NCBI RefSeq assembly: GCF_028694605.1
Contig: NZ_JAQVKP010000002.1
Span: 1-64,000 of the forward strand
Origin: Sulfurimonas sp.
Lineage (GTDB): Bacteria > Campylobacterota > Campylobacteria > Campylobacterales > Sulfurimonadaceae
Direction of reading: 5' to 3'
DNA: 64,000 bases
Position 1 is the first letter of the stretch. Every line of letters begins with the position of its first letter. Position numbers and translations under genes: made by a program. Of the stretch, positions 3,322 to 17,825 are shown piece by piece. The notes under the pieces are model-generated. The model worked only from the letters and a program-made list of their open reading frames with translations, had not been told where the DNA came from and did not search any database.

Positions 3322-4539
3322 ATGAGAAGAGTTGTAGTTACCGGACTTGGCATGATTAATGCGGTTGGAAATGATAAAGAGAGTTCTTTTAAGGCTATTT
3401 GTGACGGTGAATGTGGCATCGACACAATTACTCTTTTTGACCCAGAAAATTACAGCGTAAAGATTGCAGGCGAGGTAAAGAACTTTGATCCTGAGACTGT
3501 TATGGATGCAAAAGAGGTAAAAAAAGCAGACAGATTTATCCATCTTGGACTCAAAGCGGCGCAAGAAGCGATGGCAGAGGCAAATCTGCCTGAAGGTACG
3601 GATATGGAGAGATTTGGTATAAGTGCGGGTTCTGGTATCGGCGGTCTTCCTTCTATCGAGAAAAACTCTATCATTATCGAGATAAAAGGACCAAGACGCA
3701 TAAGTCCGTTTTTTATCCCGGGTGCGCTTGTAAATATGCTTGGCGGTTTTGTCTCTATTGAGCATGGGACAAAGGGTCCAAATCTCTCAAGCGTTACGGC
3801 ATGTGCTGCAGGTACTCACGCTATCAGCGAAGCAGTCAAGACGATTATGTGTGGCGGTGCAGACAAGATGTTGGTTGTTTCAGCAGAGTGTGCAATTACC
3901 GGTGCAGGTGTCGGCGGGTTTGCATCTATGAAAGCACTCTCAACAAGAAATGAAGAGCCAAAAAAAGCATCACGTCCATTTGATGCAGACCGTGACGGGT
4001 TTGTTATGGGAGAGGGCGCTGCTGCTTTAGTTCTTGAGGTATATGAAGATGCGGTTGCAAGAGGTGCACACATTTACGGCGAAATTATAGGGTTTGGAGA
4101 GAGCGGCGATGCAAACCACATCACAACTCCTAGCCTTGACGGTCCTGCACGTGCGATGAAAGCGGCATACGCAATGGCAGGCAAGCCAAAACTTGACTAT
4201 GTCAATGCACACGGTACAAGTACGCCTATCAACGATAAAAACGAGACGGCGGCAGTTAAAGAGCTTCTTGGCGGTAAAGAAAACTGTCCTCCGATGAGTT
4301 CTATCAAAGGGCAAATCGGTCACTGCTTGGGTGCGGCGGGCGGCATAGAAGCAGTTGTTTGTTTGATGGCGATGCGCGATGGAATTATCCCTCCGACAAT
4401 CAACCACGAAACACCTGATGAAAATTGTGATTTAGATATTGTTCCTAATGTTGCAAGAAGAGCTGAACTGATAACTGTTATGAGTAATTCATTTGGTTTT
4501 GGCGGAACAAACGGCGTTTTAATCTTTAGAAAAATCTAA
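3322..4539 (+). CDS. fabF: beta-ketoacyl-ACP synthase II
   Basis: This condensing enzyme elongates acyl-ACP with malonyl-ACP. The 405-residue product has the thiolase-like fold. Its catalytic Cys161 lies in TACAAG, and two histidines follow in NAHGTSTP and [11 protein letters not shown]. The C-terminal [10 protein letters not shown] loop is also present. Length and N-terminus ([15 protein letters not shown]) are standard for FabF. The start ATG is preceded by CGGAG. It sits between acpP and accA, with only ten bases between its stop and the accA start, so fabF and accA are very likely co-transcribed and co-translated. Confidence 0.97.
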
Positions 4540-4549
4540 GGAGTCTATT

Positions 4550-5485
4550 TTGGCAACATATTTAGATTTTGAGAGCAGTATAAAAACGATTCAAGAAGAT
4601 ATTATATCTGCTCAAGTGCGTCATGATGAGGGGCTTGTTGTCTCTCTTAAGGCAAATTTAGACAAAGAAGTTTCAAAAATTTTCAGCAACCTCTCTCCAT
4701 TCCAGCAGCTTCAGTTGGCGCGCCATGTGGATAGACCGTATGCACTTGATTATATCAATCTTTTGATGCGTGACAAGTATGAGATTCATGGGGATAGACA
4801 CTTTCGTGAAGATTCGGCTATTATCTGCTACTTGGGCTATATAGGCGATGAAAAGGTTGTCGTTATCGGTGAGCAAAAAGGGCGTGGAACCAAAAACAAG
4901 ATAAAGAGAAATTTTGGTATGCCTCATCCGGAAGGCTATAGAAAAGCTCTCCGTGCCGCAAAGCTTGCAGAAAAGTTCAATCTTCCTTTGTTGATGCTGA
5001 TTGACACTCCGGGTGCTTATCCGGGGATTGGCGCCGAGGAGAGGAATCAGAGTGAGGCGATTGCGAGAAATCTTTTAGAGCTCTCCGTGCTCAATACGCC
5101 GAGTGTCTCTGTTGTTATAGGCGAGGGCGGAAGCGGTGGTGCTTTGGCTATCGGTGTTGCAGACAGACTTGCGATGATGCGCTACTCTGTTTTTAGTGTT
5201 ATCTCGCCTGAAGGGTGTTCTGCTATTTTATGGAATAATCCTGCAAAGGTAGAAGCCGCTACTAATGCTATGAAAATTACAAGTAGTGATTTAAAAGAGC
5301 TTGGCTTGATTGATGCAATCATTAATGAGCCTTTAATCGGTGCGCATAGAGATAGAGATGCTGCTGCCGATGCGATAAAAGAGTATTTCTTGGGTGAAAT
5401 CGCAAATCTGCGTATGCTTTCTAATGAAGAGCGTATGCAGCAGCGATATAAAAAACTCACGGGCATAGGCGCATTTAGCGAGTAG
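4550..5485 (+). CDS. accA: acetyl-CoA carboxylase carboxyltransferase subunit alpha
   Basis: With AccD this subunit transfers the carboxyl group from biotin to acetyl-CoA, giving malonyl-CoA for fatty acid synthesis. The 311-residue product has the carboxyltransferase motifs [64 protein letters not shown] and [15 protein letters not shown]. The start is TTG at 4550, supported by AAGGAG at 4538-4543, part of which overlaps the fabF stop. The gene ends inside a bidirectional terminator-like palindrome shared with the convergent exonuclease gene. Confidence 0.97.
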
Positions 5486-13715: not shown

Positions 13716-14528
13716 ATGTCAAAAGTAGTTTTTATTACCGGTGCAACATCAGGTATGGGAGAGCTTAGTGCTAAGTTTTTATCCGATAACGGTTACATAG
13801 TTTATGCAGGTTCAAGAGATGCAACCGTTGCAGAGGGAAGCTCAAATCTAAAACATATATACATAGATGTTACAAATACACAGAGCATAAAAGATGCGGT
13901 CGCAAAGATCATAAAAAACGAAGGCAAGATAGATGTTCTTGTAAACAATGCAGGTTTTGGGCTTTTAGCAACTCTTGAAGAGGGAAGTGATGAAGAGATA
14001 TTTAAGCAGTTTGATGTAAATGTTTTCGGGCTTATAAAAACCTCAAGAGAAGTTCTGCCGTATATGAGAGAAGCTAAGAGCGGTGTCATCATAAACATCA
14101 GCTCGTTTTTAGGGAAGATGGGTCTTCCGCTACTATCACACTATAATGCTTCAAAGTATGCGGTTGAGGGTATAACGGATTCGCTTCGCTTTGAAACTCT
14201 GCCTTTTGGCATAAGAGTTCACTCCATAGAATCAGGGTTGTTTGGAACAAACTTTGTCAAAAAAGGTCTTATTGCAAATGCAAAAACTACGAGTGAAACT
14301 TCGCCTTACAAAGATTTGGTAGCTCATTTTGTGCCGATAGTCGCAAAAGCTATAAACGAAGGTCCGACCCCTCAGCCGATTGCAGATGCTATAAAAATGA
14401 TAATAGAAGATGAGAATGCACCTATTGCAGTACCTGTAGGTGTTGAAGCTACGACATTTGTACCGATGAGAAAAAGCCTAAGCGATGAAGAGTTTGAGCA
14501 AAAAATCAAAGAGACTTTTGGGTTATAA
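13716..14528 (+). CDS. SDR family oxidoreductase
   Basis: A 270-residue NAD(P)-dependent short-chain dehydrogenase. It has the TGATSGMG dinucleotide loop, NNAGFG, INISSFLG with the catalytic Ser, and YNASK with catalytic Tyr and Lys. The C-terminal 80 residues, with EATTFVPMRKSLSDEEFEQKIKE, fit the classical SDRs related to retinol or 3-oxoacyl reductases, but the substrate cannot be read from sequence. TAGGAG precedes the ATG. The cytochrome peroxidase gene starts only three bases after the stop, so the enzyme is co-transcribed with two multihaem cytochromes, an unusual setting. It is not a second FabG: the C-terminal region is quite different. Confidence 0.85.
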   Translation: MSKVVFITGATSGMGELSAKFLSDNGYIVYAGSRDATVAEGSSNLKHIYIDVTNTQSIKDAVAKIIKNEGKIDVLVNNAGFGLLATLEEGSDEEIFKQFDVNVFGLIKTSREVLPYMREAKSGVIINISSFLGKMGLPLLSHYNASKYAVEGITDSLRFETLPFGIRVHSIESGLFGTNFVKKGLIANAKTTSETSPYKDLVAHFVPIVAKAINEGPTPQPIADAIKMIIEDENAPIAVPVGVEATTFVPMRKSLSDEEFEQKIKETFGL

Positions 14529-14531
14529 TAG

Positions 14532-15719
14532 ATGAAAAAGCTCCTCTCTTACGCTCTGCTTATCGCCATTGTTATTGTAAGTATGATGGCTACTATTGCT
14601 TATTTTACACCTCCAAAAAAAGTTCCGAACTATAGCGATGCAGAGTTAAGGGAGTTGGCTATAAACAAGGGGCATAAAGCGATGCCCTCCTCCTTGGATG
14701 AACTTATATCCCTTGTGGATGATGCCTCCAACCCGATGACGCAAGAGAAGATAACGCTTGGAGAAGAGCTTTTCTTCGATACAAATCTCTCAAAGAGCGG
14801 CAAAACAAGTTGCGCAACATGCCACTCTTTTGACAGAGACCTTAAAAATAGCGGCGCACTGCTAAAAATGCTCACGCAAAAAGAGCCAAAAACCAATGAT
14901 TGCGCCGCATGTCATTTGAGAGATCAAAGCGGGGTCGATAGATTTACCTTTTCTCAGGGCGATAGAGACACCATGCACCCACATCTTCTCAACACGCAAA
15001 CCATTTTAAACACAGCTTTCGCAAAACATTTTACATGGAGCGGCGAAGTTAAAAGCATAAGAGAGCAGAGCGCAAACTCACTTTTGGCACATCACAAACT
15101 CAACATGACCAAAGAAGATATCAACTCCACTCTTGCCAAAAATCCAAAATATAAAAAATTGTTTGCAGAGGCTTTTGAAGACGGCATAACATTTGACAAT
15201 ACCGCAAAAGCGATTGAAGTCTATGTAAAAACGCTTGTTACAAGAGGAGCGTATGACAAATTTTTGGATGGAGACGACACTGCCATGAGCCAGCGTGCAA
15301 AGAGAGGGTTGGCAAACTTCATCAACCACGGATGCAAAGGGTGTCATGCAGGCAGAGCATTTGGGGGCGAGAGCGTCCAGAGATTTCCTCTAAGAGAGTT
15401 TGCGCAGCTCTATGATGTAAAGCCAAATTTTGAAGTTATTCCTACTCCAAAAAGGCTTGATAGCGAATTTCCTTTTGAAAATAACGGAGGATATCTCGGC
15501 AAAGGAGACGCTCATCTTTTCAGGGTGCCTATACTCAGAAATGTCACAAAAACATCTCCATATTTTCACAACGGCGCAGTACCAAAGATAAGAGAAGCGG
15601 TTGATATCATGGGAAGACACCAGCTCGGTCGCCATCTAACACTTGAGCAGATTGATGAGATTGTTGCATTTTTAAAAACATTAGAAGGCGATATAGTTGA
15701 CTACAGGGAAACAAAATGA
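14532..15719 (+). CDS. MauG/CcpA-type di-haem cytochrome c peroxidase with a third haem site
   Basis: A periplasmic c-type cytochrome of 395 residues. One membrane or signal segment spans residues 5-25 (LLSYALLIAIVIVSMMATIAYF). The family pattern LGEELFFDTNLSKSGKTSCATCH gives haem site 1 at Cys94. A second CxxCH (Cys124, DCAACH) lies in an insertion of about 30 residues absent from typical members. The third, Cys268 (GCKGCH), is the usual C-terminal haem. The end region RVPILRNVTKTSPYFHNGAV is the CcpA/MauG signature. Such enzymes reduce H2O2 or oxidise proteins. The next gene, a membrane multihaem cytochrome, overlaps it by four bases and is the likely electron partner. Confidence 0.85.
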   Translation: MKKLLSYALLIAIVIVSMMATIAYFTPPKKVPNYSDAELRELAINKGHKAMPSSLDELISLVDDASNPMTQEKITLGEELFFDTNLSKSGKTSCATCHSFDRDLKNSGALLKMLTQKEPKTNDCAACHLRDQSGVDRFTFSQGDRDTMHPHLLNTQTILNTAFAKHFTWSGEVKSIREQSANSLLAHHKLNMTKEDINSTLAKNPKYKKLFAEAFEDGITFDNTAKAIEVYVKTLVTRGAYDKFLDGDDTAMSQRAKRGLANFINHGCKGCHAGRAFGGESVQRFPLREFAQLYDVKPNFEVIPTPKRLDSEFPFENNGGYLGKGDAHLFRVPILRNVTKTSPYFHNGAVPKIREAVDIMGRHQLGRHLTLEQIDEIVAFLKTLEGDIVDYRETK

Positions 15720-17527
15720 GAAGATTTTTAGTAAAATTTTTTATACTTTTGATGTTTATCTCAGGCATGGCTCAGTTCAAACTCTTTGACATTTCATGGG
15801 AGATTTTTAGAGTTGTGCAGCCGCTGCACATAGCCTTCTCGCTTCTTGTCATGCTCTTTTTTATGAACTCTTTTATCTATAAACATATCCGCAGATACTA
15901 TTTTGTAAAAAAAACAAACAGTATGGATGGCTGGATGCTTTTAATCTCTTTTGTTCTTGTCACTCTTAGCGGAGTGTATCTGCTGCTCGTGGGCAATCGT
16001 GGCGGAGATGCCTTGGGAGCAGTCTTATTTAACATCCACCTCTTTGGTTCGTTTGTTTTGATGCTCTTTTTCCTATGGCATATAACAGCGCCTATGAAGC
16101 AAAGCAGAGAGCCGTTGGCACTTCTGGCAGCTATTCTTCTCTTCTACCCGACTATCTCACAAAGCAAGATAACAAACCTCTCCAACCTTGAGATAACCAA
16201 AAATGGTACAAAAAGCTATCACAGCGAGGATTGGACAAGTTCTGCAAAATGCAAATCATGCCATAGCGAGATATTTGAGCAGTGGAGCAACTCTAACCAC
16301 AAGCACATAGCAGGCTCAAACCCTTACTATATGGTTATGGAGACACTAGCAGGTGAGGTTGAGGGAGAGAAGTTTAGGGAGTGGTGTATGAGCTGCCATA
16401 ACCCAAGCGCACTCTCGGTTGGGTTTGGCAAAAGCACCCATGCTATGGATGGTAACTTTGTAAGTAATGAACATTTTGAAAAAGGGGCAAAAACGCTTCT
16501 GAAAGATTTTAAAGAACATGGAAATTTTAGACTCGAAGAGGGTGTTTCTTGTATAACCTGTCATCAGATAAGCGATGCGACTTCAAAGGGAAATGCTTCA
16601 TATAAACTATTGCTTGATAGAAAAAAATATGCTTTTGAAGATAGCAAATTTACCATGCCGCATCTATTTAGCGAAAAACTTATAAATGCAAACCCGAGTG
16701 TTCATAAAGAGAGCTACTCAAAAGAGTTGTATAAAGATAGCAAATATTGTGCATCTTGTCATGACGAGTCACATCCAAAAAACGGTATAAAGATAGTTTC
16801 GACTTATGAAGAGTGGGAAAAATCGCCTTTTAATAATCCAAATGACAAAACAAAGCATAAAAGTTGTATAGACTGCCATATGACAAATCTAAGTGAGGGT
16901 AAATTTGCACCACTAAAGGGAACTTCAACAGACGGCGGAACTCTGAAAAAAGATGTGAAAGTTCACTATTTTGCAGGTTCAAACCACTTTTTGGCAGGAC
17001 TTAGAGATAAAAAAAATGAAGAGCAGACCGTTCAACTGCTAAAGAGTTCCGCCCAGCTTGATGTGGCTATAAAAGGTAAAAATTTAGAGGTAGGCGTAAA
17101 AAATATCGGTGCAGGGCATCATCTACCAACCGGTGTAGCCGACTTTAGAGAGCTATGGCTTGATGTTGAAGTAAAAGATAAAGATGGCAAACTCATTGTC
17201 TCAAGCGGCAAACTAAAGAGTGATGGAAATATAGAAGATAAAAGCAGGCTTTTTCAAAAGGTTTTCGGCGATGAAAATGGCAAGCCTGTCGGACTTCTTT
17301 TTTGGAAGTATAAAACGCTTCTAAGCGATACAAGAATCCCATCAGGAGAGAGAAGAGTAGAGAGCTTTGAACTACCAAAAGATGCTATCTACCCTCTAAA
17401 AGTAAGCGTAAAGCTAAATTTTAGGATATATCCGCAATGGGTAAGTGATAAAGTGAGAAAAGTATTTCCAATCCTTCCAAACCCAAGTATTATAGAGCTT
17501 CAAAGGTTAGAAAAAGAGTTGAAATGA
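15716..17527 (+). CDS. membrane-anchored pentahaem cytochrome c
   Basis: A 603-residue protein. The first 150 residues hold about four membrane helices with histidines in positions that could bind b-type haem (VQPLHIAFSLL, FNIHLFGSF, FFLWHIT). A periplasmic domain then carries five CxxCH haem sites at Cys179, 224, 279, 345 and 384, with the layout of the cytochrome c554 family (EQWSNSNHKHI, WCMSCH, GVSCITCHQI). The C-terminal 200 residues are beta-rich and haem-free. I infer that it passes electrons between the quinone pool and the peroxidase encoded just upstream. The exact reaction is unknown. The ATG overlaps the peroxidase stop by four bases. Confidence 0.75.
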   Translation: MRRFLVKFFILLMFISGMAQFKLFDISWEIFRVVQPLHIAFSLLVMLFFMNSFIYKHIRRYYFVKKTNSMDGWMLLISFVLVTLSGVYLLLVGNRGGDALGAVLFNIHLFGSFVLMLFFLWHITAPMKQSREPLALLAAILLFYPTISQSKITNLSNLEITKNGTKSYHSEDWTSSAKCKSCHSEIFEQWSNSNHKHIAGSNPYYMVMETLAGEVEGEKFREWCMSCHNPSALSVGFGKSTHAMDGNFVSNEHFEKGAKTLLKDFKEHGNFRLEEGVSCITCHQISDATSKGNASYKLLLDRKKYAFEDSKFTMPHLFSEKLINANPSVHKESYSKELYKDSKYCASCHDESHPKNGIKIVSTYEEWEKSPFNNPNDKTKHKSCIDCHMTNLSEGKFAPLKGTSTDGGTLKKDVKVHYFAGSNHFLAGLRDKKNEEQTVQLLKSSAQLDVAIKGKNLEVGVKNIGAGHHLPTGVADFRELWLDVEVKDKDGKLIVSSGKLKSDGNIEDKSRLFQKVFGDENGKPVGLLFWKYKTLLSDTRIPSGERRVESFELPKDAIYPLKVSVKLNFRIYPQWVSDKVRKVFPILPNPSIIELQRLEKELK

Positions 17528-17825
17528 AAATTTTATGGATACTGATTTTTAGCAGCTCTCTCATTTTTGGTGAACATATAAGACGGCTAGAGTTTTTAGA
17601 GGTGCCCTTAAGTAAAATGGTATTTATGTTATCGGTTTGAAAAACTCAGTTATTTCTACATCAAAAAGCTTTGAGAGTTTAAAAAGATGTAGCAAGTTAA
17701 AGTATTTCCGCGGATGTGCAAAGTCTGTTACTTGTAAAAGTCAAGACGACTCTGAGCTAAGAGTTTGTGTACTAGAAGATTGTATAAGGGCACTAGGCTC
17801 TGCTACAGATGAAGGTAGATATTAA
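17524..17825 (+). pseudogene. broken gene for a secreted protein
   Basis: An ATG at 17524, overlapping the stop of the cytochrome gene, starts a good signal peptide (KILWILIFSSSLIFGEHI) but the frame stops at 17637 after 37 residues. A second frame, open from about 17623 to TAA 17825, reads NGIYVIGLKNSVISTSKSF and then a cysteine-rich end (KRCSKLKYFRGCAKSVTC...LRVCVLEDC). The two parts look like the head and tail of one secreted protein joined by a deletion or frameshift. I do not recognise the family. A real 62-residue product from TTG 17637 is possible but less likely. Confidence 0.5.

Follow-up and report, generated by a model that had tools for sequence, protein, structure and literature searches.

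A three-haem, peroxidase-like protein with an altered distal pocket and its membrane pentahaem partner in Sulfurimonas and relatives

The locus described here lies in a window of 64,000 nucleotides (the whole stretch of DNA that was analysed) from Sulfurimonas sp. (contig NZ_JAQVKP010000002.1, positions 1 to 64,000 of the forward strand). It combines an oxidoreductase of the short-chain dehydrogenase/reductase (SDR) family with a three-haem protein resembling cytochrome c peroxidase (CCP), whose peroxide pocket is altered, and with a membrane pentahaem cytochrome. The genes are:

13716-14528, forward strand: SDR-family oxidoreductase, 270 residues, cytoplasmic (adh_short, 155 bits); linked with AraC/SDR genes at the nir-nor loci of relatives
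14532-15719, forward strand: three-haem CCP-like protein, 395 residues, with an N-terminal hydrophobic helix, the fold of bacterial cytochrome c peroxidases (BCCPs) and an altered distal pocket (CCP_MauG, 133 bits)
15716-17527, forward strand: membrane pentahaem cytochrome, 603 residues, with four helices, a pentahaem domain and a haem-free C-terminal beta domain (Cytochrome_C554, 28.9 bits)
17524-17583, forward strand: stub of a fourth, thioredoxin-like gene, of which the N-terminal 20 residues alone are recognisable (60% identity over 20 residues, E 8.6e-6, to the gene of relative L064)

The first two genes are separated by three bases (14529-14531), while the CCP-like and pentahaem genes overlap by four (ATGA, 15716-15719), just as the first-pass annotation of this DNA had it, and co-transcription of the three is inferred from this spacing. 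Promoter-like and terminator-like sites around the unit are no more frequent than in shuffled sequence. All three genes are under purifying selection, with ratios of nonsynonymous to synonymous substitution (dN/dS) of 0.07-0.12 against relatives L056 and L063.

The CCP-like protein carries three CxxCH motifs, not two, and the additional one sits inside the BCCP core, after the motif of the P-haem. Placed by alignment, its features are:

14811-14825, forward strand: CxxCH 1, residues 94-98, the P-haem of BCCPs
14901-14915, forward strand: CxxCH 2, residues 124-128, the additional haem; the insertion that carries it is missing from all 35 two-haem CCPs compared
15096-15098, forward strand: Lys189, where NgBCCP has its catalytic Glu118 (PMC10094543)
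15333-15347, forward strand: CxxCH 3, residues 268-272, the E-haem, with Met360 as axial ligand

In NgBCCP, the pocket is formed by Phe97, Gln108, Pro112, Glu118 and Met119, with Trp98 between the haems and Met280 on the E-haem (PMC10094543). At these positions, the window protein has T168 (Phe97), W169 (Trp98), Q179 (Gln108), S183 (Pro112), K189 (Glu118), L190 (Met119) and M360 (Met280), the glutamine being placed by counting from the tryptophan (Gln108 = Trp98 + 10). The same genome encodes a separate two-haem CCP on another contig (C8) in which the pocket is intact (F, W, Q, P, E, M and M). A second CCP scoring at least 150 bits was likewise found in 15/15 pentahaem-bearing genomes of one CCP search.

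Relatives were collected by scanning 84,980 species genomes for either of two conserved peptides, an approach that misses divergent members. The scan returned 86 relatives; the best 80 of these were kept and sorted into form A (n=59), with separate CCP and pentahaem genes, and form B (n=21), a single fused protein of about 1000-1150 residues. Haem counts and pocket residues were tabulated for 52 loci, namely the window and 51 form-A loci; the form-B row L121, with an odd alignment in the helix region, was left out. For comparison, 35 two-haem CCPs from the same genomes and order were assembled from 27 open reading frames of 30 fetched CCP loci (L143, L151 and L167 dropped), the genome's own CCP and seven nir-locus CCPs. 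The two sets differ sharply. Three CxxCH motifs occur in 52/52 family members and two in 35/35 of the comparison set, and the insertion region spans 24-34 residues in the former versus four in the latter. Phe, Gln, Pro and Glu are each present in 35/35 two-haem CCPs, whereas the family has Phe in none, Pro in none, Gln in 37 and Glu in a single member (L134), and keeps Trp and the Met280 equivalent in all 52. The Glu118 position is occupied by Lys, Gln, Thr or Ile in 50 cases (Lys in 38), with one gap.

Conservation within the family follows the same division, as the sites of F97, Q108, P112 and E118 rank in the 54th-63rd percentile, i.e. about average, and those of Trp and Met in the 88th. 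Hence, electron-transfer residues are conserved above those of the pocket, which fits a protein that has lost peroxide chemistry and kept electron transfer. The commonest pocket pattern of the family is Thr-Gln-Ser-Lys, and since one pattern still predominates, a new pocket chemistry is also possible. Published mutants speak to the same residues: a single replacement of Glu or Gln inactivates NgBCCP (PMC10094543), the Glu-to-Gln variant of BthA is inactive as well, and Glu, Gln and Pro are called conserved across bCCPs, MauG and BthA (PMC6405878). Canonical BCCPs reach kcat/Km values near 1e6-1e8 M-1 s-1 with H2O2 (PMC6405878).

The protein could nonetheless still be a reductase of H2O2 or organic peroxides, fed with quinol electrons through the pentahaem protein and with another residue in place of the glutamate, an outcome similar to that of YhjA and QPO. 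The retained BCCP fold with its E-haem, Trp and Met machinery would suit such an enzyme, as would the kept Gln108 and an ancestor that was a two-haem CCP of the same operon type, and YhjA itself, with three haems and a membrane anchor, is a peroxidase linked to quinol (PMC10301912). YhjA, however, keeps E270 and Q260 (PMC10301912), while here the glutamate survives in just one of 52 sequences and Phe and Pro in none, and the replacements known to abolish activity in BCCP and BthA concern these very residues. We therefore regard a retained peroxidase as unlikely. The first-pass annotation had proposed a module from quinol to peroxide or another acceptor; its quinol-facing half is taken up below, but its peroxidase half is not supported, given a glutamate found in 1/52 members versus 35/35 two-haem CCPs.

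Structure prediction gave a CCP model with a mean pLDDT (per-residue model confidence) of 80.9, the best matches of which are mixed-valence BCCPs (2c1v, Z 34.3, root-mean-square deviation (rmsd) 2.1 over 299 aligned residues). The protein thus resembles classical BCCPs such as NgBCCP and that of P. pantotrophus (2c1v) in its fold, in the E-haem CxxCH with its Met, in the bridging Trp and, in the window, in the Gln; it differs in carrying a third haem in an insertion behind the motif of the P-haem, in the replacement of Phe, Pro and Glu, and in its pentahaem membrane partner. With YhjA, QPO and PerC it shares three c-haems, an N-terminal membrane helix and a probable quinol dependence. In those proteins, however, the extra haem lies in a separate N-terminal domain and Glu and Gln are kept (PMC10301912), whereas here the extra haem is internal, the Glu has gone and a separate protein would take over the oxidation of quinol. 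The internal position of residues 124-128 rules out a YhjA-like architecture. An identity as di-haem MauG or MbnH was likewise rejected: in MauG and BthA, a Tyr is the axial ligand of the six-coordinate haem (PMC6405878), while the E-haem ligand here is Met360, conserved in 52/52.

The partner of this protein is made up of three parts:

15827-16081, forward strand: span of four invariant transmembrane histidines, H38, H57, H108 and H122, candidate ligands of two b-haems
16250-16879, forward strand: span of five CxxCH motifs (residues 179-183, 224-228, 279-283, 345-349 and 384-388)
17040-17524, forward strand: haem-free C-terminal beta domain, residues ~442-603, with the invariant H468

The first-pass description of this product as a four-helix part, five c-haem motifs and a haem-free end holds. 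Four N-terminal helices are predicted, with the histidine pairs falling in model helices 28-64 and 99-124, and both the four histidines (HHHH) and the five CxxCH motifs are found in 52/52 form-A rows. H38, H57, H108 and H122 would most naturally hold two stacked b-haems. The attribution of a cytochrome c554 layout proved only roughly right: Pfam PF13435 (Cytochrome_C554) does exceed its cut-off (28.9 versus 20.8 bits), covering residues 178-233 only. Cytochrome c554 contains four haems, as opposed to the five motifs conserved throughout this family. The solved relative is instead the pentahaem cytochrome c552 of Thermochromatium tepidum (5ze8), to which the model of residues 171-602 aligns with Z 26.6 and an rmsd of 3.7 over 337 residues (Foldseek E 1.3e-15). 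A paper on cable bacteria groups c552 and ExtKL as one pentahaem family, the other part of which is an immunoglobulin-like (Ig-like) domain (PMC11976967). Since residues 171-602 match c552, the haem-free end can be equated with the C-terminal Ig-like domain of that family. H468 is invariant in 71/71 rows and aligns with a His of c552, so that the C-terminal end may supply a haem ligand. Five c-haems and a C-terminal Ig-like domain are therefore common to this protein and the PHC family (T. tepidum c552, Geobacter ExtKL; PMC11976967). The added N-terminal four-helix part with its four invariant histidines sets it apart, and it stays below the cut-off of NCBIfam ExtKL (NF040886; 63.5 versus 250 bits).

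Comparison of form-A loci shows which genes belong together. The CCP gene lies directly upstream of the pentahaem gene in all 55 loci with at least 300 nt of upstream sequence (four more are too short), the two overlapping by four bases in 48 of the 55. This pair occurs in Sulfurimonas, Arcobacter caeni, Aliarcobacter, Poseidonibacter ostreae, Sulfuricurvum and others, and thus extends to several genera beyond the strain in question. The unit is also carried by a metagenome bin (L118, CAMCYD010000073.1) titled Helicobacter pylori PMSS1, a label that looks wrong for an aquatic-type metagenome-assembled genome. When 99 relative genomes were searched, full-length or nearly full-length copies of the pentahaem protein turned up in 24 of the 60 genomes of the genus, one of them split over two contigs (G034) and another interrupted by an internal stop (G004); the remaining 39 genomes of the order gave weak matches only. 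Accompanying genes are less constant, with the SDR gene directly upstream in 18/49 form-A loci and downstream in 3/49, an AraC gene in 17 of 43 loci with at least 4.5 kb upstream, and a thioredoxin-like gene downstream of the pair in 25/54. Hence, CCP and pentahaem genes constitute the core pair and the SDR is a frequent neighbour. Together, the recurrence of the pair and the four invariant histidines make a quinol-facing redox module a reasonable reading. Each of the parts falls within or near known kinds; what departs from these is the way they are combined, along with the internal position of the third haem and the changes in the pocket. No account of a three-haem, Glu-less CCP with a pentahaem partner was found among licensed PMC papers, as far as their excerpts extend.

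Form B, found at 21 loci in Campylobacterota as well as Alpha- and Gammaproteobacteria, consists of four helices, a beta-propeller-like segment, a sixth CxxCH and a pentahaem domain (e.g. L031:3244-6591, L108:8000-11353 and L122:8207-11617). In L123, L128, L129 and L135, the helices are encoded by a reading frame of their own, upstream. Its four-helix part and pentahaem domain are up to 64% identical to those of form A; the differences are the propeller-like segment and sixth CxxCH in between and the partner, which is not a CCP but a protein of ~670 residues encoded upstream in 17/21 loci (e.g. L108:4799-6817, L031:6753-8777). This partner has no match in Pfam, NCBIfam or PDB sequences. In a FastTree phylogeny of form-A and form-B pentahaem domains, branches bearing on the direction of exchange have support of 0.33-0.68.

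The origin of the three-haem form was addressed with a tree of 87 CCPs (52 pentahaem-linked, 35 two-haem). Fifty-one of the 52 pentahaem-linked proteins form one clade (support 100/100), nested within a larger clade (100/99) together with the seven nir-locus two-haem CCPs and two further two-haem CCPs. Because the clade is single and nested among two-haem CCPs, the third haem, the pocket loss and the pentahaem partner seem to have been acquired together, once, on the branch leading to it. The exception, Sulfuricurvum L119, falls outside the clade on a very long branch and possibly arose separately. In L119 (8958-12136) and L120, a divergent three-haem CCP and a 715-residue partner with six CxxCH motifs lie directly before norC-norB-nirS.

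To the first-pass annotation, the SDR was the odd part of the unit. This no longer holds, as SDR and AraC homologues adjoin nor/nir genes also in genomes without the pentahaem gene, and the SDR is part of this wider nir/nor-linked AraC-SDR neighbourhood whether or not the pentahaem gene is there. Its presence as an accident of one strain is ruled out by the same recurrence. Ten pentahaem-free AraC/SDR stretches (L170-L179) were compared. Seven of them (L170-L175, L178) encode a CCP of the usual two-haem kind that retains F, Q, P and E, in the order SDR-AraC-(SDR)-CCP, followed directly by a thioredoxin-like gene in L171, L172, L175 and L178; in L173 such a gene lies ~0.9 kb away on the other strand, and none was seen in L170 and L174. 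Six of the seven contain nor/nir genes, the other (L178) being a 6.5-kb end without them. In L176 and L177, the SDR adjoins norC-norB-nirS without CCP or pentahaem genes, and L179 has the SDR only. It could be argued from L176 and L177, and from the SDR counts at form-A loci, that the three genes of the window adjoin one another but do not work together, a genuine link existing between CCP and pentahaem alone. Since SDR (or a paralogue), AraC, CCP and thioredoxin genes recur together even without the pentahaem gene, the linkage is old, and we consider this explanation doubtful.

Association with denitrification genes is also seen at the level of genomes. In the genus, nirS is present in 23/24 pentahaem genomes versus 14/36 others (Fisher 6e-6, kinship not corrected), or in 19/19 versus 9/22 at a completeness of at least 90%, and cNorB in 23/24 versus 11/36. 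Nor/nir genes lie inside 14/59 form-A loci, and in 11 of the 29 with at least 9 kb of downstream sequence. Moreover, the same genome has the SDR-CCP-pentahaem unit a second time, in decayed form, on another contig (G000:C16:118-1650, L035), just before norC-norB-nirS, with norB at 3661 and nirS at 5362. Decayed and intact copies share 90-91% DNA identity in the SDR and CCP parts and 71-74% in the pentahaem parts. Between the window and L056, synonymous divergence (dS) of the CCP gene (14532-15716) is 0.47, about half that of the flanking SDR (1.05) and pentahaem (0.93) genes, so it looks as if the CCP has been exchanged between copies.

Co-occurrence and linkage with nirS and cnorB would also agree with a nitrogen-oxide reductase acting on NO, nitrite or peroxynitrite through its changed P-haem, where a basic residue would favour an anionic ligand. 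Lys at the Glu position in 38/52 fits this proposal, and hydrazine synthase gamma, a member of the CCP superfamily (weak profile match, 31.5 bits), does act on nitrogen compounds. However, Lys is limited to those 38 sequences, one subclade has Thr with two Met (MWVMTMM, four rows), superfamily likeness proves no substrate, and cNorB or NirS already perform these steps in the same genomes. While it overlaps with the repurposing proposed below, such an activity taken by itself appears unlikely.

Our own reading, which we favour by a narrow measure, is that the three-haem protein has been repurposed and is no longer a BCCP-type H2O2 reductase, but part of a quinol-to-periplasm electron module of the denitrification neighbourhood in sulfur-oxidising Campylobacterota. 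Menaquinol would be oxidised at the four-helix part of the pentahaem protein with its two putative b-haems, and electrons would then cross the five c-haems to the CCP-like partner, held at the membrane by its own N-terminal helix. This partner descends from a normal two-haem BCCP: it has kept both original haems, the Met-ligated E-haem and the bridging Trp, gained the third haem and lost Phe, Pro and Glu of the peroxide pocket; with these residues, H2O2 reduction by the BCCP mechanism has most likely gone. Two outlets can be envisaged: electrons could be handed to NirS and NorCB, acceptors in the periplasm that are encoded at the same locus, without passing through bc1 and its cytochrome c, or they could reduce another oxidant, e.g. 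a nitrogen oxide. In S. denitrificans, NirS and NorBC are described as receiving electrons via bc1 and cytochrome c (PMC6682613). What the computation shows is the pairing of the genes, the numbers of haems, how far histidines and pocket are conserved, the nested origin and the linkage to nir/nor; the presence of b-haems, the oxidation of quinol, the direction in which electrons travel, contact between the partners and the identity of the acceptor are inferred.

Several observations weigh against this reading. Gln108 is kept in most of the family, the window included, so the peroxide-binding pocket is partly left and another group could replace the Glu, which L134 even retains. Residues 107-128 of the CCP model have a pLDDT below 50, and the model hence does not place the third haem. 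The four-helix part exceeds no Pfam cut-off, its b561/DUF4405-type scores staying below threshold (DUF4405 16.4 of 26.7 bits, Ni_hydr_CYTB 15.5 of 30.1 bits), and the fold comparisons hardly extended to it. Kinship confounds the co-occurrence with nirS. Among the 29 form-A loci with at least 9 kb downstream, 18 lack any nor/nir gene in that flank, and in the window the intact copy is not located near such genes either. For NirS and NorCB as recipients, location is the sole direct argument.

In its fullest form, put forward tentatively and held with less than even confidence, the proposal is that a respiratory peroxidase became, in a single conversion, a three-haem conduit for electrons (or a reductase of nitrogen oxides). 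With its pentahaem dihaem-b partner, it would constitute a bc1-independent branch that leads from menaquinol to the enzymes of denitrification in the periplasm of Sulfurimonas and Arcobacteraceae. If true, such a branch to NirS/NorCB would be new. The locus family amounts to a natural experiment, in which related operons hold either a two-haem, Glu-bearing CCP without the pentahaem gene or a three-haem, Glu-less CCP always paired with it. Should the catalytic Glu prove dispensable here, the BCCP mechanism as now accepted would have to be revised. Otherwise, thousands of 'peroxidase' annotations based on the CCP_MauG profile need a check of the pocket, and it becomes possible to test for a new quinol branch that feeds denitrification in sulfur oxidisers of global abundance.

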